Source: Starkeya sp. ORNL1
Lineage (GTDB): Bacteria > Pseudomonadota > Alphaproteobacteria > Rhizobiales > Xanthobacteraceae
Reading direction: 5' to 3'
Length of the DNA: 64,000 nucleotides
Assembly (NCBI RefSeq): GCF_012971745.1
Contig: NZ_CP048834.1
Span: 1,674,001 to 1,738,000, forward strand
The position numbers were made by a program, and so were the translations under genes. How positions within the stretch are numbered: position 1 is the first letter of the stretch; every line of letters begins with the position of its first letter. The notes under the pieces were generated by a model, which was not told the origin of the DNA, did no database searches, and saw only the letters and a program-made list of their open reading frames with translations. Positions 2,775 to 15,625 of the stretch are shown here, in pieces.

Positions 2775-2989
2775 GTGATGTTTCCTCTGTTCGAGAGCAC
2801 CGGACGGGGTCGCTCATCTGGACGACGAACGGGACCGCCGCAGATCGACAGGCGGCACGAAAAAATTCGCCGGGCACCCTAGCCCAATCTGTCGCCGCTG
2901 TCGGCGCCGACATCACGCAACGTAAGTCTCGATAGGCATGGCACCGCCGGCAATGCTATCTGCGCATCCAGTTCAAACATGGAGACCGC

Positions 2990-3385
2990 GTGGTGACGGA
3001 CCGGATCGCGACCCTGCAACCCTATCTGCTGAGCCTGCTTCGCGTGGTCTCGGCGCTGGTGCTGTTCAGCTTCGGCACCCAGAAGATCCTCGGCTTCCCG
3101 GTGGCGCCGCAGGTGCCGCCGATGGGATCGCTGCCCTGGATCGCCGGCGTGCTGGAGCTCACCCTCGGCTTCCTGCTGCTAGTGGGCTGGCAGACCCGCA
3201 TCGTCGCCTTCGTGCTCTCCGGGCTGATGGCGTTTGCCTATTTCATCGGCCACGCACCGCGCGATTTCTTCCCCTCGCTGAATGGCGGCGTCGCCGCCAT
3301 CCTGTTCTGCTTCGTCTTCCTCTATCTGGTCAGCGCCGGCGGCGGGCGCATCAGTGTCGACGCGCTGAGCGAACGCCGCACCTGA
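2990..3385 (+). CDS. DoxX-family membrane protein
   Basis: The 131-residue product has four hydrophobic segments: LLRVVSALVLFSFG, WIAGVLELTLGFLLLVG, IVAFVLSGLMAFAYFI and VAAILFCFVFLYLV. The DoxX motif is spread over KILGF after segment 1 and the Gly-rich GVLELTLGFLL in segment 2. DoxX/DoxD relatives are small inner-membrane proteins linked to quinone-dependent redox chemistry; the actual reaction here is unknown. The start is GTG at 2990 or the adjacent GTG at 2993; a GGAG at 2981 supports either. Confidence 0.82.
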   Translation: MVTDRIATLQPYLLSLLRVVSALVLFSFGTQKILGFPVAPQVPPMGSLPWIAGVLELTLGFLLLVGWQTRIVAFVLSGLMAFAYFIGHAPRDFFPSLNGGVAAILFCFVFLYLVSAGGGRISVDALSERRT

Positions 3386-3475
3386 GCAACGCACGGCACG
3401 TTGCGGGCGTTTCTGCTAGGCTCCAGCTTCTGCGCAGGGGTCCGCGGGGGCGGGCGGGCGCAGCCGGGCATCGGC

Positions 3476-4753
3476 ATGGCAGAGCAAGGCGCGCAGATCC
3501 GGCCGCCGCAGGTCCGTCGCGGCACGACGCTGACGGCGGCCATACTGGCGCTCGGCCTGGTGATACTGGCGTGCGGCCTCATCGCCGCCCTCGCCTTCAC
3601 GCAGATCCGCGGCGATGTCGCGCGCGCCGCCGCCGGCCAGACCGCCGCCATCGCTGAAAGGCTGAGCCAGAGCAGCGCCGCGCTGGAAGGCGTGGCGCCG
3701 AGCCTGTTCGCCGGGGCGGTCGACCCGGCGGCGCGGGGTCAGTCGGGGCCGCAGGTCCGCACCCAGCAGCAAAACATGCAGCAGCTGATCGACGAGCTCG
3801 CCGCCCATCTCGGGACCGGCGAGCCGGTCGCAATCCTGCGCGCTTCGTCGGCCGAGCTGTTCGAGACCATCGATCGGCTCGCCCCCGCCATCGCCTCCAG
3901 GGCCACGGCCGAGGCGAAGCTCCGGCAAGGGCTGGCGGCAGTGGCCACGGTGTTCGAGGAGGCAGCGGCGCTCTCCGGCCAGCCGCGCGGCGCGCCGATT
4001 GCCCGCTGGCTCGACGAGGCGCGCGGCGCCACCGGCGACATCTTCGCCGCGCTCGCCGCCACCGACGGCGCCGGTATGGACGGCCCCGCCGCCGCCGCCG
4101 GGGTGGTGCTTTCCCATGCCGGGGAGATCGCCGATGCGGCCGGCGGCGAGACCGCGGCCGGCAGCCGCGCGGCGGCGCCCGCCTTGCCGGGGCTGCAGAC
4201 CCGCCTCGACGAGGCGGTGACCGGGAGCGACGGCGTATTCGCGGCGCAGCGCCAGATCCGCGATCTCGACGGCCAGATCCGGCAATTGCTCGGCCGCAAC
4301 GCCGCGGCGGCGACGCGGCTGACCGGCGCGGTGGATGGCTTGACGCAGACGGCGCGCGCGGGAGACGAGACCGCGCCGGCAGTGACGCGCAATTGGTGGC
4401 TCGAAGCGCTGATGCTGGCCGGCGCACTCGGTGCCATGGGCGGCGCGATCTATGCGCAGCTGGGCGTGGTGCGCCGGCTGTGGGCGACGGAAAGCCCGCC
4501 CGCAGCCGAGCCGTCGCCGGTCGAGGCGGTGGCGGAAAGCCCACCGGCCCCCACCGAGATCGTCGCGAGCGCTCCCGAGCCGAAGCCGGCCGAGGACGCC
4601 GCGCCGGCGGTGATCGAAACCGCCCAGCCGACGCCGGCCGAGGATGCCAAGCCCGAAATCATCGAAACCGCCGAGCCGGCCGCCGAGGCCGCGGACGAGG
4701 CGAAGCCGCTCATCGGCCCGCCGGCGAGCCCGAGCATTGCCGCGTCGTCCTGA
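3476..4753 (+). CDS. hypothetical two-TM protein with periplasmic helical domain and Pro/Ala/Glu-rich tail
   Basis: From the ATG at 3476 the product is 425 residues. A first membrane helix lies near residues 20-40 (AAILALGLVILACGLIAALAF). About 270 residues of Ala- and Gln-rich helix-forming sequence follow, then a second helix (WWLEALMLAGALGAMGGAIY). The cytoplasmic tail is repetitive, with EPKPAEDAAPAVIETAQ followed by PTPAEDAKPEIIETAE. The layout resembles a methyl-accepting chemotaxis sensor without HAMP or signalling domain. An upstream in-frame start at 3401 would add a poorly composed leader, so 3476 is preferred. Function unknown. Confidence 0.7.
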   Translation: MAEQGAQIRPPQVRRGTTLTAAILALGLVILACGLIAALAFTQIRGDVARAAAGQTAAIAERLSQSSAALEGVAPSLFAGAVDPAARGQSGPQVRTQQQNMQQLIDELAAHLGTGEPVAILRASSAELFETIDRLAPAIASRATAEAKLRQGLAAVATVFEEAAALSGQPRGAPIARWLDEARGATGDIFAALAATDGAGMDGPAAAAGVVLSHAGEIADAAGGETAAGSRAAAPALPGLQTRLDEAVTGSDGVFAAQRQIRDLDGQIRQLLGRNAAAATRLTGAVDGLTQTARAGDETAPAVTRNWWLEALMLAGALGAMGGAIYAQLGVVRRLWATESPPAAEPSPVEAVAESPPAPTEIVASAPEPKPAEDAAPAVIETAQPTPAEDAKPEIIETAEPAAEAADEAKPLIGPPASPSIAASS

Positions 4754-4775
4754 GTGCCGGGCTCGCACCCAACAA

Positions 4776-5096
4776 CGTCATCCTGAGGCGCGAGCGACAG
4801 CGAGCCTCGAAGGATGCTGAAGCCGGGCCACATCGCTCGCTCGCGAACATCCTTCGAGGCCCAGCTTCGTTAGGCACCTCAGAGCCTGACTCAAAATAGA
4901 CGACCTCATCCTGAGGTGCCGCCGCAGGCGGCCTCGAAGGATGCTGAAACAGAGCGCCTGTGACCGCCAACGAGCATCCTTCGAGGCTCGGGCCCTGCCC
5001 GAGCACCCCCGCGGTTGGCCCATGGGCCAACCGCCAGGGATGAGGTGGTTCTGGTATCGCAGACGAGTTTTCGAGTCAGGCTCCCAGGATGACGTG
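4776..5096. repeat. complex intergenic repeat: dyad repeat copies with a nested MITE-like insertion
   Basis: The spacer begins CGTCATCCTGAGGCGCGAGC...CTCGAAGGATG, then has the inverse arm CATCCTTCGAGG...CACCTCAG. At 4882 this arm is broken by the element described next; the arm's continuation, CAGGATGACGTGG, appears only after 5083. No gene was recognised here. Confidence 0.75.
4882..5083. mobile_element. MITE-like element, copy 1 (no coding capacity)
   Basis: Terminal inverted repeats are GAGCCTGACTCAAAA (4882-4896) and TTTTCGAGTCAGGCTC (5068-5083). The 202 bp between contains no transposase and itself carries dyad-repeat arms. It interrupts the palindromic repeat at CACCTCA/CCAGGATGACG, which fits a three-base TNA-type target with one change. 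The ends resemble IS5/IS427-group termini, so mobilisation in trans is possible. Confidence 0.6.
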
Positions 5097-5271
5097 GCTC
5101 CGGCCCCATGCCACTGGCAGCCACAGGCGGGCTCGCTTATATTCGCCTTGTCCAAGGAGCCACTGATGGCCTTGCCTCTCCGACACTGACGGCCCGCCCG
5201 TCCCCCCTCTCGCCGCGACGACGGGAGAGGTGTGCCTGCCTCTCCCCGCGCCGCGCGCCGAGGAGGCTGGC

Positions 5272-5478
5272 ATGGCCAGGCAGGACGAGAATCCCGAAAC
5301 CGAACCTTCCACCGACCCCAGGCAGAGCGAAGCCGAGCGCAAGCGGCGCTTTGCCAATGCTCTGGCCCGGGCAGAGTTCGGCCGCTTCTATTGGAACGAT
5401 GAGCTGGAGAGCCGCCTGCAAGGCGCGCTGGTGCCTCCCGGCAACGGGGCGCGCAAGCGACCACGCCGCGGCGGGTAG
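5272..5478 (+). CDS. small hypothetical protein, 68 aa
   Basis: The ATG at 5272 follows a strong ribosome site (gaggaggctggc). The 68-residue product is highly charged: an acidic N-terminus (RQDENPETEPSTDPRQSEAE), a central helix-like RRFANALARAEFGRFYWNDE, and a basic tail ending RKRPRRGG. No signal peptide or membrane segment is present. The family was not recognised. The ribosome site and amphipathic middle favour a real gene. Confidence 0.5.
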   Translation: MARQDENPETEPSTDPRQSEAERKRRFANALARAEFGRFYWNDELESRLQGALVPPGNGARKRPRRGG

Positions 5479-5618
5479 CGGCGCCTGAGCCGGCGGGCCG
5501 GAGGCGCAAACGTAAAAGTCATCCTGCCCGCTGGCAGCCAGCTCTGGTTGCCAGCGGCAAGCTATGCCTATGCTCCCCCGAATACCGGGCGGCCGCGGAG
5601 CCCCCCGGCCTTGGGGGG

Positions 5619-6632
5619 ATGGGGATGTCGGGAACGAGAGGCGCGCTGTCGCGGCGCGCGGTGGTGATCGGGCTCGGCGCCGGTCTCGCCGGGATCGGCC
5701 GCGCGCAGGCCGAGCCGCAGGAATTGCAGATCGACCAGTTGAAGCCCGGCCAGTTCAGCTGGCACCCGGAGCGCGCGCCGGGCGGACCGATCGCCATCGT
5801 GGTCTCGCTGCCGGACCAGCGGGTCTATGTCTATCGCAACGGGGTGCGCATCGCGGTCTCCACCTGCTCCACCGGCAAGAAGGGGCACGAGACGCCGACT
5901 GGCGTGTTCACCATCCTGGAGAAGGACAAGGACCACCACTCCTCGATCTATAACAACGCGCCGATGCCGAACATGAACCGGCTGACCTGGTCGGGCGTCG
6001 CGCTGCATGCCGGCAACCTGCCGGGCTATCCGGCCTCGCATGGCTGCGTGCGGCTGCCGATGGCGTTCTCGCAGAAGCTGTTCGGCATCACCCGCATCGG
6101 CACGCCGGTGATCATCGCCGATGCCGCCACCTACCCGACCGCGGTGATCCATCCCGGCATGGTGCTCTCGGCCGACGCCGCGAAGGCGTTCGACGGCGTG
6201 GCGGCGGCTGCGAAGAAGCAGGCGGCCAAGCCCGTGCCGGCCAACCAGATCCCGGCAACCTCGATCATGGTTTCGAGCGCCGACCAGCGCATCATCATCC
6301 TCGACGACGGCAAGCAGGTGGCCGAGGGCGCGGTGACCATCACCAATCCGGACAAGCCGCTCGGCAACCATGTGTTCATCCTCTCCAGCGTCGACACCGA
6401 CGACAAGGAGCTGCGCTGGCAGACCATCGGCTATTACGACAATGACCAGCGTTCCCCGGAGCCGATGGAGCTGGTGACGATCCAGCGCATCCGCACCACG
6501 CAAGCGGTGGTCGACGCCATGACCGCCCGCATGCACCCCGGCACGGTGATGGTGACCGTGGACGTGCCCTTGAGCGCCGACACCCGGACGGGGAAGGATT
6601 TCGTGATCATCACGAACGACGCGGGGAGTTAG
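5619..6632 (+). CDS. L,D-transpeptidase (YkuD domain), exported
   Basis: The 337-residue protein has an N-terminal twin-Arg-like signal (SRRAVVIGLGAGLAGIGRAQA). Its YkuD catalytic domain spans about residues 55-170 with the signature HAGNLPGYPASHGCVRLP; the Cys of SHGCVR is the nucleophile and the His residues its partners. Such enzymes make 3-3 peptidoglycan cross-links or anchor proteins to peptidoglycan in the periplasm. The C-terminal 160 residues include the segment YYDNDQRSPEPMELVTIQRI, which is repeated downstream as gene fragments. Starts at 5619 and 5625 are both possible behind a GGGGGG-rich leader. It is convergent with the SH3-like gene, 9 bp apart. Confidence 0.9.
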   Translation: MGMSGTRGALSRRAVVIGLGAGLAGIGRAQAEPQELQIDQLKPGQFSWHPERAPGGPIAIVVSLPDQRVYVYRNGVRIAVSTCSTGKKGHETPTGVFTILEKDKDHHSSIYNNAPMPNMNRLTWSGVALHAGNLPGYPASHGCVRLPMAFSQKLFGITRIGTPVIIADAATYPTAVIHPGMVLSADAAKAFDGVAAAAKKQAAKPVPANQIPATSIMVSSADQRIIILDDGKQVAEGAVTITNPDKPLGNHVFILSSVDTDDKELRWQTIGYYDNDQRSPEPMELVTIQRIRTTQAVVDAMTARMHPGTVMVTVDVPLSADTRTGKDFVIITNDAGS

Positions 6633-6641
6633 CGGCGCGCC

Positions 6642-7766
6642 TCAATCGCCGTCGACCACGACATCCGGCACCACGAAGCGCTCGGTACCGTTTACCGTCA
6701 CCACGGTGTTGTCGCTCTCGCGGGCGCTCACCACCGCGCTGCCGTCGCTGGTGGTGACGAGGCCGTGGCTGAAGCGCAGCGTGCGCCTGGAGCCATCGGG
6801 AAAGCTGATCTCCACGCTCGCCCGCCCCTGCCCGGCGCGCGTCACGCCGAAGCGGCAGGCGCGCACCGCCTTGTCGCCCGGCAGGCGGCAATCCACCTCG
6901 CCGGTGGCGTTGAATTGCGTGCCCGCCACCTTGGCATCGGCACTCGCCTTGGCGTCAGAAGCCTTGGCATTGGCCTTGGGCGCGGCCTCGCCCGCCGCCT
7001 CACGCAGATAGCGCCCGCTGGCCCAGCCGACCGTATTGGCATCGCCCTGGAGCTGCACCTTGCACCAGCGCGCGCCGGCAACGGGCCGGCAGCCCATATT
7101 GCGCACCACGGCGCCCTCATTCAGCGTGACGAGGACAGCATCCGTCGCCGAGGGACCGGAGCGGATGTTCAGCGTATCGCCCGGCACCAGCCCGGCCACC
7201 TGCCAGAAATCCGGCCCGCCGGCGAAGCCATCGGCAAAATCGGTCTTCGGCAGCGGCGGCATGGCGGCGACCTGCGGCGCGCCCGGCTGCGGCGCGCGCC
7301 CGCTGCCGGAGCCGATGCTGAAATCGATGGTGTAGTCGGCGCTCTCGTTCCGCCGGGCGGCGGCGCGCACCAGATAGACCTGGACGACATAAATGCCGTC
7401 CGCCGGCAGAGCGCCGGTGAAATCGCTGCCCGACACCGAGCCGACGAACAGCGCCATGTCGCTGCCGGGCGCGTTCACGTTGAAATTGGCGCTCGGATTG
7501 CGGGCGCGGAAGGTGACGGTCATGGTCTGCCCGGCGCGGGCGCCGAGCCGGTATTCCACCGAGTTGTTGCCGCGCACGCTGCCCTGATAGGAGGCCGAAC
7601 TCGCCCCCGCCGCGAACTTCACCTCGACCCGGCTCACCTCGTCGGCCGCGCGCAGCGGCTGGGTGCCCGAAAGCGCAAGGGCGGCGAGCGCGCCAACAAG
7701 CGCGAGCGCACGCCGCAGCGCAGGTGGGAAAATGCGAGCCGGCGGGACAAGGCAGGCGAGCGGCAT
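6642..7766 (-). CDS. secreted protein with an SH3b-like domain
   Basis: The 374-residue product has a signal peptide (ALRRALALVGALAALALSG, then ALRAADE) and a beta-rich region (about 45-150) resembling inhibitor or pre-peptidase C-terminal type domains. An SH3b-like module at about 185-255 (LNIRSGPSATDAVLVTLNEG, then GARWCKVQLQG and GWASGRYL) follows; this fold usually binds peptidoglycan peptides. A linker of NAKASDAKASADAKV repeats leads to a C-terminal beta domain with two Cys. A periplasmic role near the cell wall fits the convergent L,D-transpeptidase; the functional link is inference. Confidence 0.75.
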   Translation of the reverse strand: MPLACLVPPARIFPPALRRALALVGALAALALSGTQPLRAADEVSRVEVKFAAGASSASYQGSVRGNNSVEYRLGARAGQTMTVTFRARNPSANFNVNAPGSDMALFVGSVSGSDFTGALPADGIYVVQVYLVRAAARRNESADYTIDFSIGSGSGRAPQPGAPQVAAMPPLPKTDFADGFAGGPDFWQVAGLVPGDTLNIRSGPSATDAVLVTLNEGAVVRNMGCRPVAGARWCKVQLQGDANTVGWASGRYLREAAGEAAPKANAKASDAKASADAKVAGTQFNATGEVDCRLPGDKAVRACRFGVTRAGQGRASVEISFPDGSRRTLRFSHGLVTTSDGSAVVSARESDNTVVTVNGTERFVVPDVVVDGD

Positions 7767-7867
7767 GGCGTCCTCCTCACGTTCCGGCGGAGGGTAGCTC
7801 GCGGCAGGGTTGCCGTCGAATGTTTGAAATTGGGGTATGCGGGTGGGCGGCGCGGCTTGCGCCGGCC

Positions 7868-8071
7868 GGCTATTACGACAATGGCCAGCGCTCTCCGGAG
7901 CCGATGGAGCTGGTGACCATCCAGCGCATCCGCACCACGCAAGCCGTGGTCGACGCCGTGACCGCCCGCATGCACCCAGGCACGGTGATGGCGACCGTGG
8001 ACGTGCCGCTAAGCGCGGACACGCGGAAGGGGAAGGATTTCGTGATTATCACGAATGAGGTGGGGAGTTGA
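7868..8071 (+). pseudogene. duplicated 3' end of the L,D-transpeptidase gene, copy 1
   Basis: The 204 bases from GGC TAT TAC to the stop match 6429-6632 codon for codon, with only scattered changes, mostly synonymous (YYDNGQRSPEPMELVTIQRI here). Nothing upstream encodes the catalytic domain, so this is a tail fragment without its own start. It marks the left edge of the low-GC accessory region. Confidence 0.88.
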
Positions 8072-9123
8072 GGGAGGGGGGCGAGCGGCACACCGCTAAG
8101 TTGACTCTCTCCTGTCTTTGATGAATTCTTTTGTATGGGGGAGACATGCTGGTCATCTCATTCGCGGACGCAATCCTAGATTCGGCAAGGTATACAAGGC
8201 GGCATTTGTTGCTTGGCAACGGCTTCAGCATCGCTTGTCGCGCGGACATTTTTCACTACGGATCATTGTTCGCCCAAGCGGATTTTTCTGACGTTCCTGA
8301 GGTCCGGGCTGTTTTCAAAGGTTTAGAAACACAAGACTTTGAAGTAGCAATCAGAGCGCTCGAAGGTGCGTTGCGAATCCTACCAGCCTATGTAGCTGAC
8401 AGTGCTGCGCCTCAGGCTATGATGGCTAGACACGCTGAAGCACTAAAAGATATTCTCGTTCAAACCATTGCAGCAAATCACCCTGCAATCCCTGGCGACA
8501 TCCCTGACGAGAAGTTTTGGGCTTGTCGTAAATTCCTGTCGAATTTCTTGGCTCCACAGCAGGGGCAGGTTTTCAGCCTCAACTATGATCTATTGCTATA
8601 CTGGACGCTTATGCACGAGGATAAGCCCTTCGAAGGGCCCATTCAACTTAACAAGAATGACGGATTTGGGAATTCTGAGGGAGACCCACTAGCAGATTAT
8701 GTTGTCTGGCAGGGCGAGGTCGGCGCCCATAGTGCATCTGTCCATTTTCTCCATGGAGCTCTTCATCTTTTTGACTCAGGATCAGAACTAAAGAAATATA
8801 CATGGGTACGAAAAGGGATACCTCTAATACAACAAGCTCGAGCCGCCATCGCCACAAACGCGTTTCCGCTATTTGTTGCCGAAGGAACGAACATACAGAA
8901 AAAGAACAAGATCAGGCACAACGCCTATCTTTATCAAGGATTCAAACAACTTACGGCTAACGCGGAGACCATAAAACATTGCTTTTTTATCTTCGGTCAC
9001 TCTTTGGCGCAAAACGACGACCACATACTTCATCGCTTAGCCCGAGGCCGATTCGCACATCTCTATGTTGGGATCTATGGCGACCCACTTGCGTTTGACA
9101 ATACGCGAATCATGAGACGAGCC

Positions 9124-9575
9124 TTAGGTGACCGACTCATAACTTCGCAGCCAGATGCGAATTGAAGCGAGCTGGATTGAGGCGAGGAAATTGTCGTCTC
9201 GCTTGTCGTAGCGGGTGGCGACGGCCCTGAAGTGTTTGAGTTTGTTGAAGAAGCGCTCGACAGCGTTGCGTTGGCGGTAGAGCCAGGCGCTGAAGGCGAG
9301 GGTTTTGACCCTGTTGGGCATGGCGCGAACGTTGGCCCATGCGCCGCGCCCAGCCATCTCGTCTCGCAAGGCGTCGCTGTCATAAGCCCTGTCGGCGAGA
9401 AGGATGTTTCCCGGCTCGACCGCGTCCAGCATGTCGGTGGCCGAGCGCCCGTCGTGAGCTTGGCCCTCGGTGAGCTTCAGGCGGATCGGGCGGCCTTCGG
9501 CGTCGACGAGCGCGTGGATCTTGGTGGTCAGGCCGCCGCGCGAGCGACCCATGCAACGGGATCGCTCGTCTTTTT
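9124..9575 (-). CDS. IS5-family transposase OrfB (C-terminal catalytic part, made by -1 frameshift)
   Basis: Downstream of the slippery A-run the -1 frame reads GRSRGGLTTKIHALVDAEGR, ILLADRAYDSDALRDE and RNAVERFFNKLKHFRAVATR. These are the second Asp and the YREK-type Glu/Arg/Lys signature of the DDE transposase. It ends WLRSYESVT, the usual C-terminus of IS427-group elements. No good independent start lies near the junction, so an OrfAB fusion is the likely active protein. The frame is intact; activity is unknown. Confidence 0.8.
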
Positions 9576-9893
9576 TTGGCCGTTGGCGGCATGCTGGTGA
9601 ACGCGGATCGACGAGGCGTCGATCATCTGGATATCGCCATCGTAAGCAGCTGATACGGCTTTCAGAATGCGCGCCCAGTGGCCGGCCTTGCGCCACCGGT
9701 TGAAGCGGTTCACGCAGGTCGTATGAGGGCCATAGCGCGAAGGGATATCGGCCCATGGCGCCCCGGTGCGCAGGCGCCAGAAGATGCCGTTCAGAACGCG
9801 ACGGTCATCCACGCGTGCAACCCCGCGCACCTTCGTCGGCAGAAGTGGCTCGATCACCGACCACTCGAAATCCGTCAGGTCAAATCGCGCCAT
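9528..9893 (-). CDS. IS5-family transposase OrfA
   Basis: From MARFDLTDFEWSVIEPLLP the frame encodes the N-terminal DUF4096-type helix-turn-helix region (GIFWRLRTGAPWADIPSRYG) that recognises IS ends, plus the first catalytic Asp segment (YDGDIQMIDASSIRVHQHAA). It reaches a run of seven A (complement of 9568-9574), where ribosomes can slip by -1 into orfB. Unslipped, it ends with a basic Ala-rich tail. An alternative ATG four codons upstream exists. Confidence 0.8.
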   Translation of the reverse strand: MARFDLTDFEWSVIEPLLPTKVRGVARVDDRRVLNGIFWRLRTGAPWADIPSRYGPHTTCVNRFNRWRKAGHWARILKAVSAAYDGDIQMIDASSIRVHQHAANGQKKTSDPVAWVARAAA

Positions 9894-10153
9894 CTCAACC
9901 TCCAACGCTGAGATCAGTGAATCAGAACACCGGGCCGCAGGGAATCCCCTTATGGGTATGTGACCTAGAGTTGGCTCAGCTTCGTAGCGACCGATACCCT
10001 CTTGAGGTCACCTTTTACGATGCCGAGTCCGCCAAGGTATGGGGATAGACTATCAATGCTCACCCTTCGCTTAAACTCGATGGCAACAACTGCGAACTAA
10101 GAGAAGAATACAAGCTCGGACTTTGCGGTGGCCCTTACGAGTGCCCATTCGTC

Positions 10154-10285
10154 CACGACAATGACGAGCGCCGCATCGAGATGAAACCTAGTGACGATCC
10201 AGCGCAATTGCTTCACGCAGCGCGCTTGGAGACCCTGATCGCCCACATATACCCTGGCACCGTGACAGCGGAGGTGTCGGACGCC
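10154..10285 (+). pseudogene. decayed second copy of the L,D-transpeptidase gene tail
   Basis: ACGACAATGAC(G)AGCG at 10155-10170 and GTGACGATCCAGCGCA at 10191-10206 match the transpeptidase gene at about 6436-6495. A weaker match follows at ACCCTGGCACCGTGA. Indels have shifted the frame: the first half follows one frame and IAHIYPGTVTAEVSDA another. No start or catalytic domain is present. Upstream bases 10049-10153 hold no recognisable gene. Confidence 0.5.
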
Positions 10286-10540
10286 ACGGAGCGACAATTC
10301 TCCCCGTAAGAGGCGCCAAGCTGGTTCAGTTCATATCGCCCGACCGCGCAATCCGCATATCGAGACCAATATCCGTATTGCGAACTGTGGCCGCGACCGC
10401 ACCAAGCCGCTGTCGCCATGCCAACGGGAAATGTTCTAGCTCAAGAATTCCGAGAACTCTCCGACGACGACAAAATCACCATTGACAGCCACAGCTTGAA
10501 TCGCTCACTATCCTCACGCAACCTACGTGAGATTAGTGAC

Positions 10541-11119
10541 ATGCGAGTTTCGATCCAAAAATTGACGGGCGACACGGTTTGCGCTGGCGCGCACGTTGGC
10601 CACTTGGTGCTGGTCAAACTTCTTGGCGAAGTGAACCGCGAGCACAGCGTGCCGGAATTGGTGTTCCTTGATTTTGCCGACGTCGAAATAGCTACCGCGA
10701 GCTTCCTCCGCGAGAGCGTGCTCGCCTTCCGGGACTTCGTTCGGCAGCAACGCCCCACATATTATCCGCTACTCGCCAACGCGAACGTCCAAGTCAGCGA
10801 GGAGCTAAAGATGCTTCTCGACCTTCAAGGTGGTGCACTTTTGGCGTGTGAGCTGGACATCGGCAACCAAACAACCAATATTCAGCTTCTCGGACGCCTC
10901 GAAGGCAAACAGCAACTCGCGTTTAAGTTAGTGGGCGAGCGCGGCGAGACCGATGCGGCGCAATTGCAGCTCGAGTTCGGTGAGAATGAAGGCGTAAAGC
11001 AGACTGCATGGAACAACCGTCTCGCTGCATTGGCAGCTTCTGGCCTAATCATTGAAACAAGCCGAGGCCGAGCGAAGCGGTATCGCTCACTATTAGGTGG
11101 GGTTTACGATGGGTGTTGA
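10541..11119 (+). CDS. STAS-like (DUF4325) domain protein with C-terminal winged-helix region; operon gene 1
   Basis: From the ATG at 10541 the product is 192 residues. Residues about 20-65 contain ELVFLDFADVEIATASFLRE, matching the DUF4325 STAS-like core: a beta-strand ending in DF-x-V, then an SFL helix. STAS-like domains of this kind usually work with GHKL ATPases, and one is encoded by gene 4. The C-terminal 70 residues (TAWNNRLAALAASGLIIETS, then RGRAKRYRSLL) look like a winged helix, suggesting DNA binding. An in-frame ATG at 10418 would add 41 residues but has no clear ribosome site. The 3' end overlaps the next gene by 11 bases. Codon use is less GC-rich than in the chromosome around it. 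Confidence 0.65.
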   Translation: MRVSIQKLTGDTVCAGAHVGHLVLVKLLGEVNREHSVPELVFLDFADVEIATASFLRESVLAFRDFVRQQRPTYYPLLANANVQVSEELKMLLDLQGGALLACELDIGNQTTNIQLLGRLEGKQQLAFKLVGERGETDAAQLQLEFGENEGVKQTAWNNRLAALAASGLIIETSRGRAKRYRSLLGGVYDGC

Positions 11120-11453
11120 CTTCATTGAAAAGGTTAAACGCACTTTCGAGAAACACCTTGATCTTCAGCGGGCGAAGTTAGCGACGGCGGATCTCTTTAC
11201 CCGAACTCCGATTGAGAACCGCCCGGCGTTTTCTGCTGATCTCGTCGGACGCTTTGTTCCGAAGGTCGGTATGGAGTTGATAGCCGAGGTCGATGGTCAA
11301 ACACTTGTGTTGAGTAATGACCAAACCGTCGTCGCCCGCGGCACTGTTCCGCCTTCAATTCTACAGGCCGTTGAGGACTCTTGCGGTGTCGCAACCGCAA
11401 TAGTGCAGGAAGTGCATGAATTCTCCGGTGTTGTAGAGGTTACCCTGTGCTAA
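11109..11453 (+). CDS. small unknown protein, 114 aa; operon gene 2
   Basis: The ATG at 11109 lies inside the end of the preceding gene (ATGGGTGTTGA overlap). The product begins with a helix (GVDFIEKVKRTFEKHLDLQR) and continues with alternating hydrophobic strands (VGMELIAEVDGQTLVLSNDQ; TAIVQEVHEFSGVVEVTLC), suggesting a small beta domain. There is no signal peptide, membrane helix or catalytic motif. The family was not recognised. Its stop TAA shares its last base with the next ATG (TAATG), so translation is coupled and the protein is probably needed in fixed ratio with its neighbours. Confidence 0.6.
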   Translation: MGVDFIEKVKRTFEKHLDLQRAKLATADLFTRTPIENRPAFSADLVGRFVPKVGMELIAEVDGQTLVLSNDQTVVARGTVPPSILQAVEDSCGVATAIVQEVHEFSGVVEVTLC

Positions 11454-12622
11454 TGACCTCCCCTGCTCTCGACCATGCGACGTCGAATGAGACCGCTAAC
11501 AGCGCGCGTACTCTACGACGGGAACGCCGCCTTTGGGATCAACCTTGGTCGACACTTTCACTCGGCTGCACCGCGTGTAGACAGGTCGATGAGTGTGGAG
11601 GCTTACACACAAAGGCGCCGTTACTTGATTGCATGGGCCTCTGTTGTGGCAGACCCGCGACCTGTAGCAAGGTTTGCCGTGCGAAACCTGCCGATTTTGT
11701 CGCGCGTGTTCGAGAGATAGGCGGGTTTAATCTCTCCAATACACCGCGCGGCCCATTACTTGCGTCACCGACGCTACCAAAGATGATTCCGGTTATCTAC
11801 CACGGAAACAAGCGAACGGAGGTTTATTCCGGCGGAGTAGTCGCGCTTTCGCTTTATGCCTTGCTGAGCAAGGCGACCGGCGACCTCAAATTCATGTCGC
11901 GCGAGCAGTTGTGTGACGCATTCAGGATTTCTACAGATACGACCATCGTTCTCACAGGCACCCACCAGGATCCGCCGCTGGAGCGTTGGTGGTCGTACGG
12001 CGAGGCGAAAACCGAAGAAATCATCGGCTTGCTTCGCGGACTTGGGATCAAACTGGTTACAACGCCAAATTACAGCCTTTTTGCCAACGCGCCCCGTTGG
12101 GACGATATGCACTCTATGAAGCGGATCGCTCTGACGTTTGCACAGTTCGTCCGCGGCGGAATTCCGGCCGCCCTCCATGTGAACGGCCGAACAGCAAAGG
12201 ACTTCTGGAGGTGGCGCGACTTCCTGTGCGAGCGCCCTGAGATCACGCACCTGGCCTACGAGTTCGGGACTGGCGCCGGACGAGCGGCACGGTCGCCGCA
12301 ACACGCCGAGTGGCTTACAGAACTGGCGCGATCCGTCGATCGACCACTCCACATTCTCGTTCGCGGCGGCCTTGATGTGTTGCCAACGCTTGCTGCTTCA
12401 TTCGCCGGCGTGACCTTGCTCGACACGTCTGCGTTTATGAAGACGATGAATCGCCAGTGCGCTGTTCCGGAAGGGAATAGGAACGTGAGGTGGGAGCTAT
12501 CGCCGACGGCTACCAACGATGAGCTTGAAAGGTTGTTTATCCACAATGTGACTGCACTGAACGATATCGCCTGCTTGCTCACATCGCCTTCGCGCGGCGA
12601 ATTAATAGCCTCGGGCTCCTAA
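11453..12622 (+). CDS. Cys-rich DUF4417-like protein; operon gene 3
   Basis: The 389-residue product has eight Cys between residues 39 and 75 (CTACRQVDEC, then CMGLCCGRPATCSKVC), a dense metal or Fe-S ligand set. The body resembles DUF4417: IPVIYHGNKR; TTPNYSLFANAPRWDDMHSM; RIALTFAQFVRGGIPAALHV; a Trp-rich WRWRDFLCERPE helix; and strand-helix alternation of a TIM-barrel-like fold (THLAYEFGTGAG). No substrate is known for the family. Starts are ATG at 11453 or GTG at 11447. It is coupled at both ends by TAATG junctions. The assignment to DUF4417 is by pattern recognition and needs a profile search. Confidence 0.6.
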   Translation: MTSPALDHATSNETANSARTLRRERRLWDQPWSTLSLGCTACRQVDECGGLHTKAPLLDCMGLCCGRPATCSKVCRAKPADFVARVREIGGFNLSNTPRGPLLASPTLPKMIPVIYHGNKRTEVYSGGVVALSLYALLSKATGDLKFMSREQLCDAFRISTDTTIVLTGTHQDPPLERWWSYGEAKTEEIIGLLRGLGIKLVTTPNYSLFANAPRWDDMHSMKRIALTFAQFVRGGIPAALHVNGRTAKDFWRWRDFLCERPEITHLAYEFGTGAGRAARSPQHAEWLTELARSVDRPLHILVRGGLDVLPTLAASFAGVTLLDTSAFMKTMNRQCAVPEGNRNVRWELSPTATNDELERLFIHNVTALNDIACLLTSPSRGELIASGS

Positions 12623-13419
12623 TGGAACTCGAATCTCGCGTACTGAATTTTGCGGCCGTAGATGACCTAGGCTTTGCCGGGGCGAAAGGGAGGCTGGAGA
12701 AACTGCCATCAAACCTCTCCTTTACGAGCCACCAGATAGGACCTTTGCTTGAACTGCGACATCTTCAAGGTAGCGGCACGATTCCCAGTGCACGTCCTTG
12801 GTGGCTAAATGTCGGGGGACTCGATGAACTAATGCGGGCAATCGCGGGAGACGAGCGGCAATGGTTCTGCCGGATCAATCGCGCCATGGGCATGATGAAA
12901 CTCGACGCCACACCTCGACCGCAGGAGTGGACAGACTTCGCGATGAACATGAAGCGCGCTGGCGTACTCGCAGGCCTCTCTTCCGATTGGGCGGCGCAGA
13001 TGACGGCTGCACTCCGCGAATTGGAATCGAATATCCACGAACACTCGGGGGCCGTAGGAACCGGGCTCATAGCCTATCGCGGAGCGCCGGGGGAGTTCGA
13101 GTTCGTCGTCGCTGATCTCGGCTTAGGACTCTTGGCAACGCTACGCGAGGCGCCAGACTATGCACTACTGACTGATCATGGAGAAGCTTTACGCTTAGCC
13201 TTAACCGACGGAGCGTCGCGACTTGGAGCAGGCCTAGGTCGCGGTTATGGATTTCGGCCTCTATTCACTGGATTAGCGAACCGTCGAGCGTCGTTGCGCT
13301 TTCGGTCCGGGACCGCATCTTTGACAATTGACGGAACGAGCCCCTCATTGGTTCATGCCCGTCTCGCAACTAAAGCATTCGTTCGAGGCTTCTTTGCTTC
13401 AATAAGCTGCTCAATTTGA
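12622..13419 (+). CDS. GHKL (HATPase_c) ATPase; operon gene 4
   Basis: The ATG overlaps the previous stop (TAATG). In 265 residues the C-terminal half shows the Bergerat ATP fold: N-box LRELESNIHEHS (Asn at 137), G1 box VADLGLGLL (163-171) and G2 box GAGLGRGYGF (202-211), followed by a terminal strand pair RASLRFRSGTASLTIDG. There is no DHp histidine, sensor or membrane segment, so it is not a classical histidine kinase. It resembles soluble ATPases or anti-sigma-type kinases that pair with STAS-like partners, here gene 1. The N-terminal 120 residues are unassigned. What it phosphorylates or remodels is unknown. Confidence 0.75.
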   Translation: MELESRVLNFAAVDDLGFAGAKGRLEKLPSNLSFTSHQIGPLLELRHLQGSGTIPSARPWWLNVGGLDELMRAIAGDERQWFCRINRAMGMMKLDATPRPQEWTDFAMNMKRAGVLAGLSSDWAAQMTAALRELESNIHEHSGAVGTGLIAYRGAPGEFEFVVADLGLGLLATLREAPDYALLTDHGEALRLALTDGASRLGAGLGRGYGFRPLFTGLANRRASLRFRSGTASLTIDGTSPSLVHARLATKAFVRGFFASISCSI

Positions 13420-13624
13420 TCTCGATCCGACATACAATTTTTAAAATTGGGGTCGAAAAATATACTGAAACATCATCAGCGATCAATTGGCGCCACTTAC
13501 TCGCGCTTTGGTAAGCTGGCCGGCATCTCGCCTTCAGACGAATTCATCTTGCTTGCAGGGTTAGATATTTTTCTTACACTCGACCATCCGCGATGAGTGT
13601 TTTACGAGATGTCACTCGCCGCCA
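13420..13624 (+). other. right edge of the island; short open frame continuing after the ATPase stop
   Basis: Immediately after the ATPase stop the same frame stays open for 58 codons to a TGA at 13594-13596 (FGKLAGISPSDEFILLAGLD is part of it). There is no good start codon. It may be chance, a readthrough tail or a remnant. High-GC chromosomal sequence resumes at about 13620. Confidence 0.3.
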
Positions 13625-15625
13625 TCAAGCCGCCGCCCCGCTCTCCTCCCCGACCCGCTCCACGCCGCGCGCCGGCTCCCCGGCCTCGCCTCCAGCAGCC
13701 GGCCCCTCGCCCACACCCTCCTCGCCCGCCGCACGCAGCGTCTCGCGGGCGCGGTCGGCTTCGCGCTGGCGTTCCCACATGGAGTGGTAGAGCCCGCGCT
13801 TGCGCATCAGTTCGAGGTGGGTGCCGCGCTCGGTGATCCTGCCCTGCGCCAGCACAATGATCTCGTCGGCGCTCACCACGGTGGAGAGCCGGTGCGCGAT
13901 CACCAAAGTGGTGCGGCCGCGGGAGACGCGGTCCAGCGCGTCCTGGATCTCGCGCTCGGTGTGGCTGTCGAGCGCGGAGGTGGCCTCATCAAGCAGCAGG
14001 ATCGGCGGGGCCTTCAATATGGTGCGGGCGATGGCGACGCGCTGCTTCTCGCCGCCGGAGAGCTTCAGCCCGCGCTCGCCCACCTCGGTGGCGAAGCCCT
14101 TGGGCGTGGTGCGGATGAAGGTGTCGATCTGCGCCAGCTCCGCCGCGCCTTCGATCGCCTGTTCCGGCGCGCTGTGCCGGCCGTAATGGATGTTGTAGCC
14201 CAGCGTGTCGTTGAACAGCACGGTATCCTGCGGCACCATGCCGATGACGGCGCGCAGGCTCTCCTGCGTCACGTCGCGAATGTCCTGGCCGTCAATGGTG
14301 ATGCGGCCGGCATTCACGTCGTAGAAGCGGAACAGCAGGCGCGAAATGGTGGACTTGCCGGCGCCCGAGGGGCCGACGATCGCCACCGTGCGCCCGGCCG
14401 GCACCTCGAAGGAGATGCCCTTGAGGATCTCGCGGTCCGGATCATAGGAAAAGCGCACATCCTCGAAGCGCACCGCGCCGCCCTGCGCCTGCAAGGGCCT
14501 GGCGCCGGGCTTGTCCTCGATCTCCGGCGGGCGGGCGAGGATGGCGAACATCGCCTCGATGTCGATGAGCGATTGCTTGATCTCGCGATAGATCATGCCG
14601 AGGAAGTTCAGCGGCTGATAGAGCTGCACCATCATGGCGTTGATCATCACGAAGGAGCCGACCGACTGGCGCCCGGCGCGGATGTCGAGCACGCACAGCA
14701 CCATCGCCGCGGTGAGGCCGAGGGTGAAGATCACCGCCTGCCCGGCATTCAGCCAGGCCAGCGAGGTGTAGGTGTGGGTGGTGGCGCGCTCGTACTTCGC
14801 CATGGAGCGGTCATAGCGCTCCGCCTCCCAGCCCTCGGCGCCGAAATACTTCACCGTCTCGTAATTGAGCAGCGAATCCACCGCCTTGGCATTGGCGTCG
14901 GTGTCGCTCTCATTCATCGCGGCGCGGATGCCCATGCGCCATTCGGTGAGCATGAAGGTGAAGACGGTGTAGCCGATGATCATCGCCACCGTGACCAGCA
15001 CATAGCGCCAGTCGAACACCCAGAGCAGCACGCCCACCACCATGATGAATTCGAGGATGGTGGGGGCGAGGTTCAGCACCGTCATGCGCACGATGGTCTC
15101 GATGCCGTTGCGCGAACGCTCCAGCACGCGGGTGAGTCCGCCGGTCTTGCGCTCCAGATGGAAGCGCAGCGACAGCGCGTGCATGTGCTGGAAGGTCTCC
15201 AGCGCGAGGCGGCGCACCGCATGCACCGCCACCTTGGCGAACAGGCCGTCGCGCCACTGGGTGATGGCGGCCATGACGATGCGGGCGAAGCCATAGGCCA
15301 GCGTCAGCCACACCGGGATCGCCACCAGCCAGCCGAGCTGGTCGGTGGAGACGTTGGCGCCCTCGCCGTGCGCCACCGCATCGGTCGCCCATTTGAAGAC
15401 GAAGGGCGTCGACATGGTGGCGACCTTGGCCAGCACCATGAGGATGAGGCCCCACAGCACGCTGGCGCGCAGGTCCGCCCGGTCGCGCGGCCAGAGGTAA
15501 GGCATCAGCCCGCGCAGCGCGAGCCAGAGGCTGCCGCGCGGCTCTACGGAGGGATAGGCGGCCGGCTGGGGGCCTGGTTGCGACGTGGCGGCGGGCGCCG
15601 GGTTGGCGCTGACAGGGGCATTCAT
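13625..15625 (-). CDS. ABC exporter, Atm1/HMT1 type (permease fused to ATPase)
   Basis: The 666-residue half-transporter has a Pro/Ala-rich cytosolic N-terminus and six membrane helices (about 50-350). The ABCB7/Atm1 segment LLNYETVKYFGAEGWEAERY is present. Its ATPase domain has Walker A GPSGAGKST, Q-loop VPQDTVLF, signature LSGGEKQR, Walker B ILLLDEAT and switch His IAHRLST. Atm1-type proteins export glutathione-linked sulfur or metal species and support Fe-S and heavy-metal homeostasis. It is co-transcribed with the upstream ArsR gene through an ATGA overlap. A Gly/Glu/Ala-rich tail is longer than usual. Confidence 0.9.
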   Translation of the reverse strand: MNAPVSANPAPAATSQPGPQPAAYPSVEPRGSLWLALRGLMPYLWPRDRADLRASVLWGLILMVLAKVATMSTPFVFKWATDAVAHGEGANVSTDQLGWLVAIPVWLTLAYGFARIVMAAITQWRDGLFAKVAVHAVRRLALETFQHMHALSLRFHLERKTGGLTRVLERSRNGIETIVRMTVLNLAPTILEFIMVVGVLLWVFDWRYVLVTVAMIIGYTVFTFMLTEWRMGIRAAMNESDTDANAKAVDSLLNYETVKYFGAEGWEAERYDRSMAKYERATTHTYTSLAWLNAGQAVIFTLGLTAAMVLCVLDIRAGRQSVGSFVMINAMMVQLYQPLNFLGMIYREIKQSLIDIEAMFAILARPPEIEDKPGARPLQAQGGAVRFEDVRFSYDPDREILKGISFEVPAGRTVAIVGPSGAGKSTISRLLFRFYDVNAGRITIDGQDIRDVTQESLRAVIGMVPQDTVLFNDTLGYNIHYGRHSAPEQAIEGAAELAQIDTFIRTTPKGFATEVGERGLKLSGGEKQRVAIARTILKAPPILLLDEATSALDSHTEREIQDALDRVSRGRTTLVIAHRLSTVVSADEIIVLAQGRITERGTHLELMRKRGLYHSMWERQREADRARETLRAAGEEGVGEGPAAGGEAGEPARGVERVGEESGAAA

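Follow-up and report, generated by a model that had tools for sequence, protein, structure and literature searches.

CapK and CapS form a DNA-damage switch for immune operons. The repressor is CapS, a STAS-winged-helix protein, which the kinase CapK, once activated by single-stranded DNA (ssDNA), was shown by experiment to phosphorylate at Ser54 (Chambers et al. 2026, PMC13373217). All 443 capK homologues of that study are directly followed by capS (443/443). Here we analyzed a 64,000-nucleotide stretch of Starkeya sp. ORNL1 (the window; contig NZ_CP048834.1, positions 1,674,001 to 1,738,000), which carries a four-gene cassette combining a CapS-like protein and a kinase with a CapK-like domain with two further proteins. 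We computed the gene set, its co-occurrence, homology and conserved residues, a palindrome among relatives and the defence-rich surroundings, and found that the four genes form one conserved, mobile unit. The cassette may represent an immune system that is self-contained and has not been described before: a cross-phylum unit in which a CapKS-type switch is combined with a dedicated small protein and a DUF4417-like metalloenzyme with eight cysteines, and which would be derepressed upon infection or DNA damage; we hold this reading tentatively, with somewhat less than even confidence.

Gene layout and co-occurrence

The four genes of the window copy were taken from a listing of open reading frames (ORFs) on the forward strand. 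Gene 1 (10541-11119), assigned by profile comparison and locus alignment, encodes a STAS (DUF4325-like) plus winged-helix protein that we read as a CapS-like repressor. Gene 2 (11109-11453; library scans and alignment) encodes a small protein of 114 amino acids without a recognised domain, gene 3 (11447-12622; alignments) a DUF4417-like protein in which eight cysteines and certain polar residues are conserved, and gene 4 (12622-13419; profile comparison) a GHKL ATPase/kinase whose CapK-like kinase domain is joined to an N-terminal region of its own. Genes 1 and 2 overlap by 11 bases (11109-11119), and the guanine-cytosine (GC) content is 0.49-0.61 across 8-14 kb of the window, compared with 0.64-0.73 in the flanks (8 kb left, 10 kb right). 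The ORFs and the GC profile thus bear out an earlier note on this DNA, which had described four same-strand genes with an 11-base overlap in a low-GC island. The note also reported two TAATG junctions. Both strings are present, at 11451-11455 and 12620-12624, and the second is the junction of genes 3 and 4; however, the first is probably not the start of gene 3. This gene likely begins at the GTG at 11447, with a 7-base overlap of genes 2 and 3, because aligned homologues share a leading M-L (L2 is invariant in 32 rows).

A gene-neighbourhood comparison, as proposed in the earlier note, was made with local profile searches; the complete set was present in 46 of 54 loci, counting the window. 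Six of the 8 incomplete loci lie at contig ends (L002, L019, L037, L039, L064, and L068), while L018, without gene 1, and L032, without genes 1 and 2, are not explained in this way. Gene 4 was inverted in 11 loci and stood first in L054 (a Planctomyces plasmid), with the set nonetheless intact. The loci came from genome contigs (39), plasmids, viral contigs (1) and further genomes of relatives, the class and the phylum. Plasmid records H2 and H3, which have the same sequence context as H1, were left out, as were five Streptomyces records that do not represent the cassette. All 54 loci had been collected via gene 3, and searches of phylum genomes with genes 1 and 4 served as the reverse test; the phylum searches scored the best 4, 8 and 6 candidates per genome. 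Among 398 phylum genomes, gene 3 was found in 5; gene 1 occurred in these 5 and also in G813, where the match was weak and confined to the winged helix. Gene 4 was found in 4 of the 5 genomes with gene 3, and the fifth, G627, has gene 3 near a contig end. Homologues that never co-occur would have refuted the reading of the earlier note; co-occurrence is instead almost strict. The four genes also diverge in step: across 45 loci (L020, where gene 4 is cut, was left out of this alignment), the pairwise distances of all six gene pairs correlate with Mantel r of 0.88-0.94, and all of 500 permutations gave values of 0.21 or lower.

Proteins of the cassette

Gene 1 aligned with a CapS profile over 160 columns covering both domains (expectation value E = 6e-7, probability 92), with its Ser54 placed on Ser54 of CapS. 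The STAS part alone gave E = 4.4e-6 and the winged-helix part alone E = 0.002, and comparisons for which no match was expected did not fall below E = 0.09. The CapK and CapS profiles were built from five of six fetched CapKS loci, L098 being left out for want of annotation; the fetched loci include WP_001567865.1, the CapS accession of PMC13373217. Ser54 and T52 of gene 1 are identical in 45 of 45 loci, with position 53 variable, and so are the winged-helix residues N158 and N159; Ser54 is probably the phosphorylation site. The family DUF4325 (PF14213) reached window gene 1 at E = 0.043 and 14 bits, below its cut-off of 23, and two homologous gene 1 proteins exceeded that cut-off (28.3 and 28.8 bits). 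The CapS match over both domains agrees with the STAS-like segment and DNA-binding-like end that had been read from this gene. A search of solved structures returned six rows with E of 0.086 or worse, none of which we accept as a match; the fourth, 9z71_A (E = 0.38), is a 184-residue winged-helix regulator and pointed to the CapS loci.

The match of gene 4 to CapK (E = 6.8e-11, 82 columns) comprises the GHKL/kinase domain only and places N137 in the matching N-box. Residues E133, N137, H141, D165, G167, G169, G208, and G210 of the kinase motifs are identical in 45/45 loci, in agreement with the intact GHKL ATPase boxes noted earlier. The partner pair of STAS protein and GHKL kinase that had been suggested is also supported, since gene 1 groups with CapS and the kinase domain of gene 4 with CapK. 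HATPase_c_2 was below cut-off on window gene 4 (E = 0.16), and several of the listed homologues carry PF13581. W81 of gene 4 is a tryptophan in 36 of 45 loci; the region of CapK around W68, an ssDNA-binding aromatic residue, gave no alignment. No solved structure matched gene 4. The kinase part matches the phage family phrog_3364 (E = 7.4e-10), whose function is not known. In L036, a second, weakly related GHKL gene (12520-13542; E about 4e-12) follows the cassette and is itself followed by a helicase gene.

The eight cysteines of gene 3 are conserved in 44 or all 45 of the aligned loci (a single row is gapped), and D175, E179, N208, H244, and E272 are identical in all 45. These conserved cysteines and polar residues suggest a metal cluster and an enzyme, so that the product of gene 3 is probably a metal-binding enzyme with a metal cluster; its sequence may be read as a barrel fold. 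The earlier description of a cysteine-rich, DUF4417-like protein holds for the cysteines, and some gene 3 homologues carry the name DUF4417 in source records, but the Pfam cut-off of DUF4417 (PF14386) was not reached. At E up to 1, window gene 3 had no Pfam family and none of 32 aligned homologues (0/32) hit DUF4417; no cassette record matches it. Relatives on Streptomyces plasmids scored 26.1 and 22.8 bits, below the cut-off of 28.9. The DUF4417 proteins of two such plasmids (L055 and L056 7878-9011) are 27% and 26% identical to gene 3 and share all eight of its cysteines, whereas their gene neighbours differ, being genes for a ParB N-terminal protein and amidoligases. The only solved structure listed for gene 3 (E = 0.33) was at chance level and was discarded. 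Homologues at E up to 1e-3 number at least 589 for gene 3 and at least 874 for gene 4, among about 8000 scored candidates each. In L021, gene 3 extends over two overlapping frames (9884-11088), suggesting a frameshift or sequencing error, and one metagenome bin (JAIEQJ01) holds two cassettes, L013 and L040, with gene 3 77% alike.

For gene 2 we collected 169 homologues. Pfam assigned none of its families to the window protein at E up to 1, NCBIfam gave one chance-level row, and solved structures gave chance-level rows only. Two candidate identities were rejected: HIRAN (PF08797), for which a search of 12 genomes or records gave no match at the cassette, and a BON domain, named in one UniRef entry among the listed homologues of a protein whose window copy has no Pfam family. 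Overall, curated libraries barely detect the cassette, with genes 1 and 4 below cut-off and genes 2 and 3 lacking a Pfam family, and a PADLOC scan of the four proteins gave no match.

Promoter, surroundings and mode of control

The probable -35 box of the cassette promoter, TTGACA, was read from the sequence at 10482-10487 (+), and a TTGAC box occurs at a similar position in most of 36 aligned relatives. A general promoter scan did not report this promoter because the -10 region of the window is weak. Downstream of the box and just before gene 1, palindrome searches across loci revealed the pattern CTCACGT-N5-ACGTGAG. The putative operator of the window is TCACTATC-CTCACG-CAACCTA-CGTGAG-ATTAGTGA (10505-10539; inner part 10513-10531). 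The best dyad is centred 13-26 bases 5′ of the gene 1 start in 37 of 46 loci and lies elsewhere in 9. Its score averaged 6.04 of 7 over the 46 loci, compared with 5.08 in shuffled sequences, which preserve base composition only; the top of 100 shuffled means was 5.24. In 16 other genomes we found 13 sites at up to 1 mismatch (11 genomes), 10 of them located at the cassette by coordinate check. The cassette site of the window's own genome has 1 mismatch and is one of 3 such sites there. The case for the palindrome rests on the 46 loci together and not on the window copy. We also considered that, in place of a DNA operator, an RNA hairpin might mask the ribosome site; this is the less likely option, as the left arm contains the inferred start of transcription.

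The cassette is distributed patchily: counting its own genome throughout, it occurs in 4 of 101 relatives, with no other match in the same genus, 2 of 385 genomes of the class and 5 of 398 of the phylum. By record title, the carriers are Alpha- and Gammaproteobacteria, Acidobacteria-type bacteria, Nitrospinae, Polyangiaceae, Solirubrobacterales, Armatimonadetes and a Planctomyces plasmid, along with numerous metagenome bins. It is also found on plasmids. Carriage by phages was rejected, given no cassette among phage records and 1 locus among viral contigs.

A defence gene was recognised among the two nearest genes per side in 23 of 53 related loci (the window was left out of neighbour counts), often but not always downstream. 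In the remaining 30, some of which end at contig ends, none was recognised close by. At 1e-10, the 93 nearest genes matched 244 PADLOC families and the 71 second-nearest 117, versus 26 for 101 control genes from 11 random regions, whose matches were mainly UvrD-type helicase and ATPase rows. Twenty neighbours were also scanned singly for gene-by-gene results, and 15 of them, in 14 loci, matched at 1e-8, including HamB, type III and IIG restriction, BrxL, HmaC, GajA, OLD-like, HerA, MkoA and others; the neighbours in L004, L024 (downstream), L025, L040, and L051 had no match. A pooled scan at 1e-15 gave 17 families for the 41 remaining upstream genes and 26 for the 47 remaining downstream genes. 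Gabija-type genes were recognised by similarity in six more loci (L026, L027, L028, L029, L057, and L066), and records name DUF499/DUF1156/SNF2 genes in L050, a KwaB-like gene in L052 and a NACHT gene in L051, whose protein had no PADLOC match. L015 and L017 share 83% in gene 3, yet adjoin different defence systems.

In the window itself, a DUF4917/AbiH-like gene (8131-9165, +; PADLOC candidate family PDC-S21, E = 1.5e-111) lies upstream of the cassette, beyond insertion-sequence-like ORFs, and there is no defence gene directly downstream. Between this gene and the cassette is a transposase-like coding sequence in two overlapping frames (9124-9905, -), which we take to be of IS5 type. In the closest genome of the same genus, G021, window positions 2873-13719 are replaced by other DNA, short matches apart, indicating a variable spot. 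No clean empty site was found, and two further genomes showed the right flank only.

These surroundings suggest a link of the cassette to stress or phage. It would be quite improbable for the genes to make up an ordinary stress or metabolic operon that has no tie to immunity and is carried along in variable regions: the 30 loci with no recognised defence gene nearby would suit such an operon, whereas the patchy occurrence, the carriage on plasmids and the excess of PADLOC families among the nearest genes do not.

We infer DNA binding, phosphorylation, a signal and an effector role for genes 2 and 3 as follows. In the resting cell, a gene 1 dimer would occupy the palindrome of its own promoter, holding the operon at a low level. 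A signal would then activate the gene 4 kinase, which would phosphorylate Ser54 of the gene 1 STAS domain, causing the dimer to fall apart and the operon to be induced. By analogy with CapK, the signal may be ssDNA from DNA damage or phage infection; it is drawn from analogy only because the gene 4 N-terminus matches nothing in CapK. Genes 2 and 3 would be the conserved payload, with gene 3 probably encoding a metal-cluster enzyme for immunity or stress. We consider the chances evenly balanced that the cassette is such an autoregulated, self-contained kinase-repressor switch of an immune or stress operon.

Several observations weigh against this scheme. The palindrome is weak locus by locus (P of 0.03 or less in 14/46), and that of the window taken alone reaches only 1 of 60 with long arms and P = 0.16 with 7-base arms. 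A reversed control yielded 5 sites at up to 1 mismatch in the same 16 genomes. At up to 2 mismatches, the window's own genome has 5 sites versus 8 for the reversed control, which is not distinct from chance and gives no support to a regulon beyond the cassette, an idea we therefore dropped. In sequence-profile comparisons, the N-terminus of gene 4 matched neither the CapK STAS domain (E = 0.92) nor the CapK N-terminus (0.33). Finally, where gene 4 reads forward, 12 of 16 recognised downstream defence genes lie on the same strand.

This last observation also supports a serious rival, namely that the cassette is a portable regulator of the adjoining defence system. Derepression would then raise the neighbouring operon, with genes 2 and 3 serving as sensor or modulator subunits; we regard this as possible, though on the doubtful side. 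CapKS itself acts in this manner (PMC13373217), CapW/BrxR and CapH+CapP are further precedents, the defence genes near 23 of the 53 loci are of many kinds, and the gap to the downstream gene is 44-50 bases in L006, L026, and L029. However, with gene 4 forward, 17 of the 38 genes nearest on the downstream side are convergent, out of reach of transcription from the cassette promoter, and just 7 lie within 150 bases on the same strand. In 17 loci, the stretch from gene 4 to the next gene on the same strand contained no second operator (CTCAC..GTGAG, fewer than 2 mismatches); weak 2-mismatch matches occur downstream of gene 4 in L016, L031, L036, L040, and L050. More than half of the loci have no recognised defence gene to regulate, some of them cut by contig ends, and intact loci keep genes 2 and 3, with L032 (no gene 2) as the sole exception. 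We favor a switch acting on its own operon because the four genes are almost inseparable and the operator was found at the cassette promoter, and because of the convergent downstream genes and the missing second operator.

Comparison with known systems

No characterised pathway containing all four genes appeared in the searches made, in keeping with the earlier note, which knew of no described system with this combination. Searches of the open literature, the DUF4417 passages of PMC12704722 among them, turned up no comparable four-gene system; preprints, supplements and subscription papers lay outside these searches. The text of PMC13373217 contains no DUF4417, DUF4325 or four-gene set.

Among regulators mentioned in that paper, CapW/BrxR, CapH+CapP and RptR resemble the cassette as local regulators that adjoin diverse defence systems. 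They differ in using WYL, protease or other mechanisms, and no STAS/GHKL pair is named for them there. In SpoIIAB/SpoIIAA and RsbW/RsbV, summarised in the same paper, a GHKL kinase likewise acts on a serine of a STAS protein, but the cassette has no sigma factor gene and its STAS protein has its own winged helix.

VapKSC (PMC13373217) is also a self-contained operon, with a CapK-like kinase, a STAS protein and a dedicated partner. It thus offers a precedent, with the same two domains, for a switch at the protein level, in which gene 1 would block the gene 2 or gene 3 protein until released by the kinase and the palindrome would only tune expression. The strict co-occurrence and correlated divergence of the four proteins would fit such a complex. 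We nevertheless consider this unlikely. VapS, as described there, lacks a winged helix and binds a PIN-domain toxin, whereas gene 1 retains its winged helix, including the invariant N158 and N159, and has the palindrome at its promoter. In the window, Pfam (E up to 1) assigns no PIN family to gene 2 or gene 3.

The kinase-repressor switch that we favor is closest to CapKS. Both have a STAS-winged-helix protein with a conserved Ser54 and a GHKL kinase partner, whose active-site asparagine is N218 in CapK and N137 in gene 4 (45/45 loci). Like CapKS, the cassette is mobile, has a palindrome at its promoter and stands beside diverse defence systems: Gabija, Hma/DISARM-like, restriction, BREX, Hachiman, Kiwa and others for the cassette, and Bub, CBASS and others for CapKS, as named in PMC13373217. 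The two differ in the domains of the kinase, as CapK is arranged helix-turn-helix (HTH)-STAS-GHKL and the N-terminus of gene 4 does not match the HTH/STAS part in sequence profiles. They differ also in gene order, capK directly preceding capS while the cassette has the CapS-like gene first, two genes between and the kinase last (or inverted). The CapKS operator has TTAA half-sites at two promoters, compared with CTCACGT half-sites at one promoter in the cassette, and the cassette carries genes 2 and 3 as two extra conserved genes. By this comparison, the cassette appears to work like CapKS but is not CapKS. It would extend the CapKS kinase-repressor logic to a unit with two more conserved proteins, in one of which, gene 3, the cysteine cluster is strictly conserved and some residues resemble an active site. 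Two points are thereby opened to testing: whether STAS/GHKL switches bring along effectors of their own, and what role DUF4417-like proteins play.

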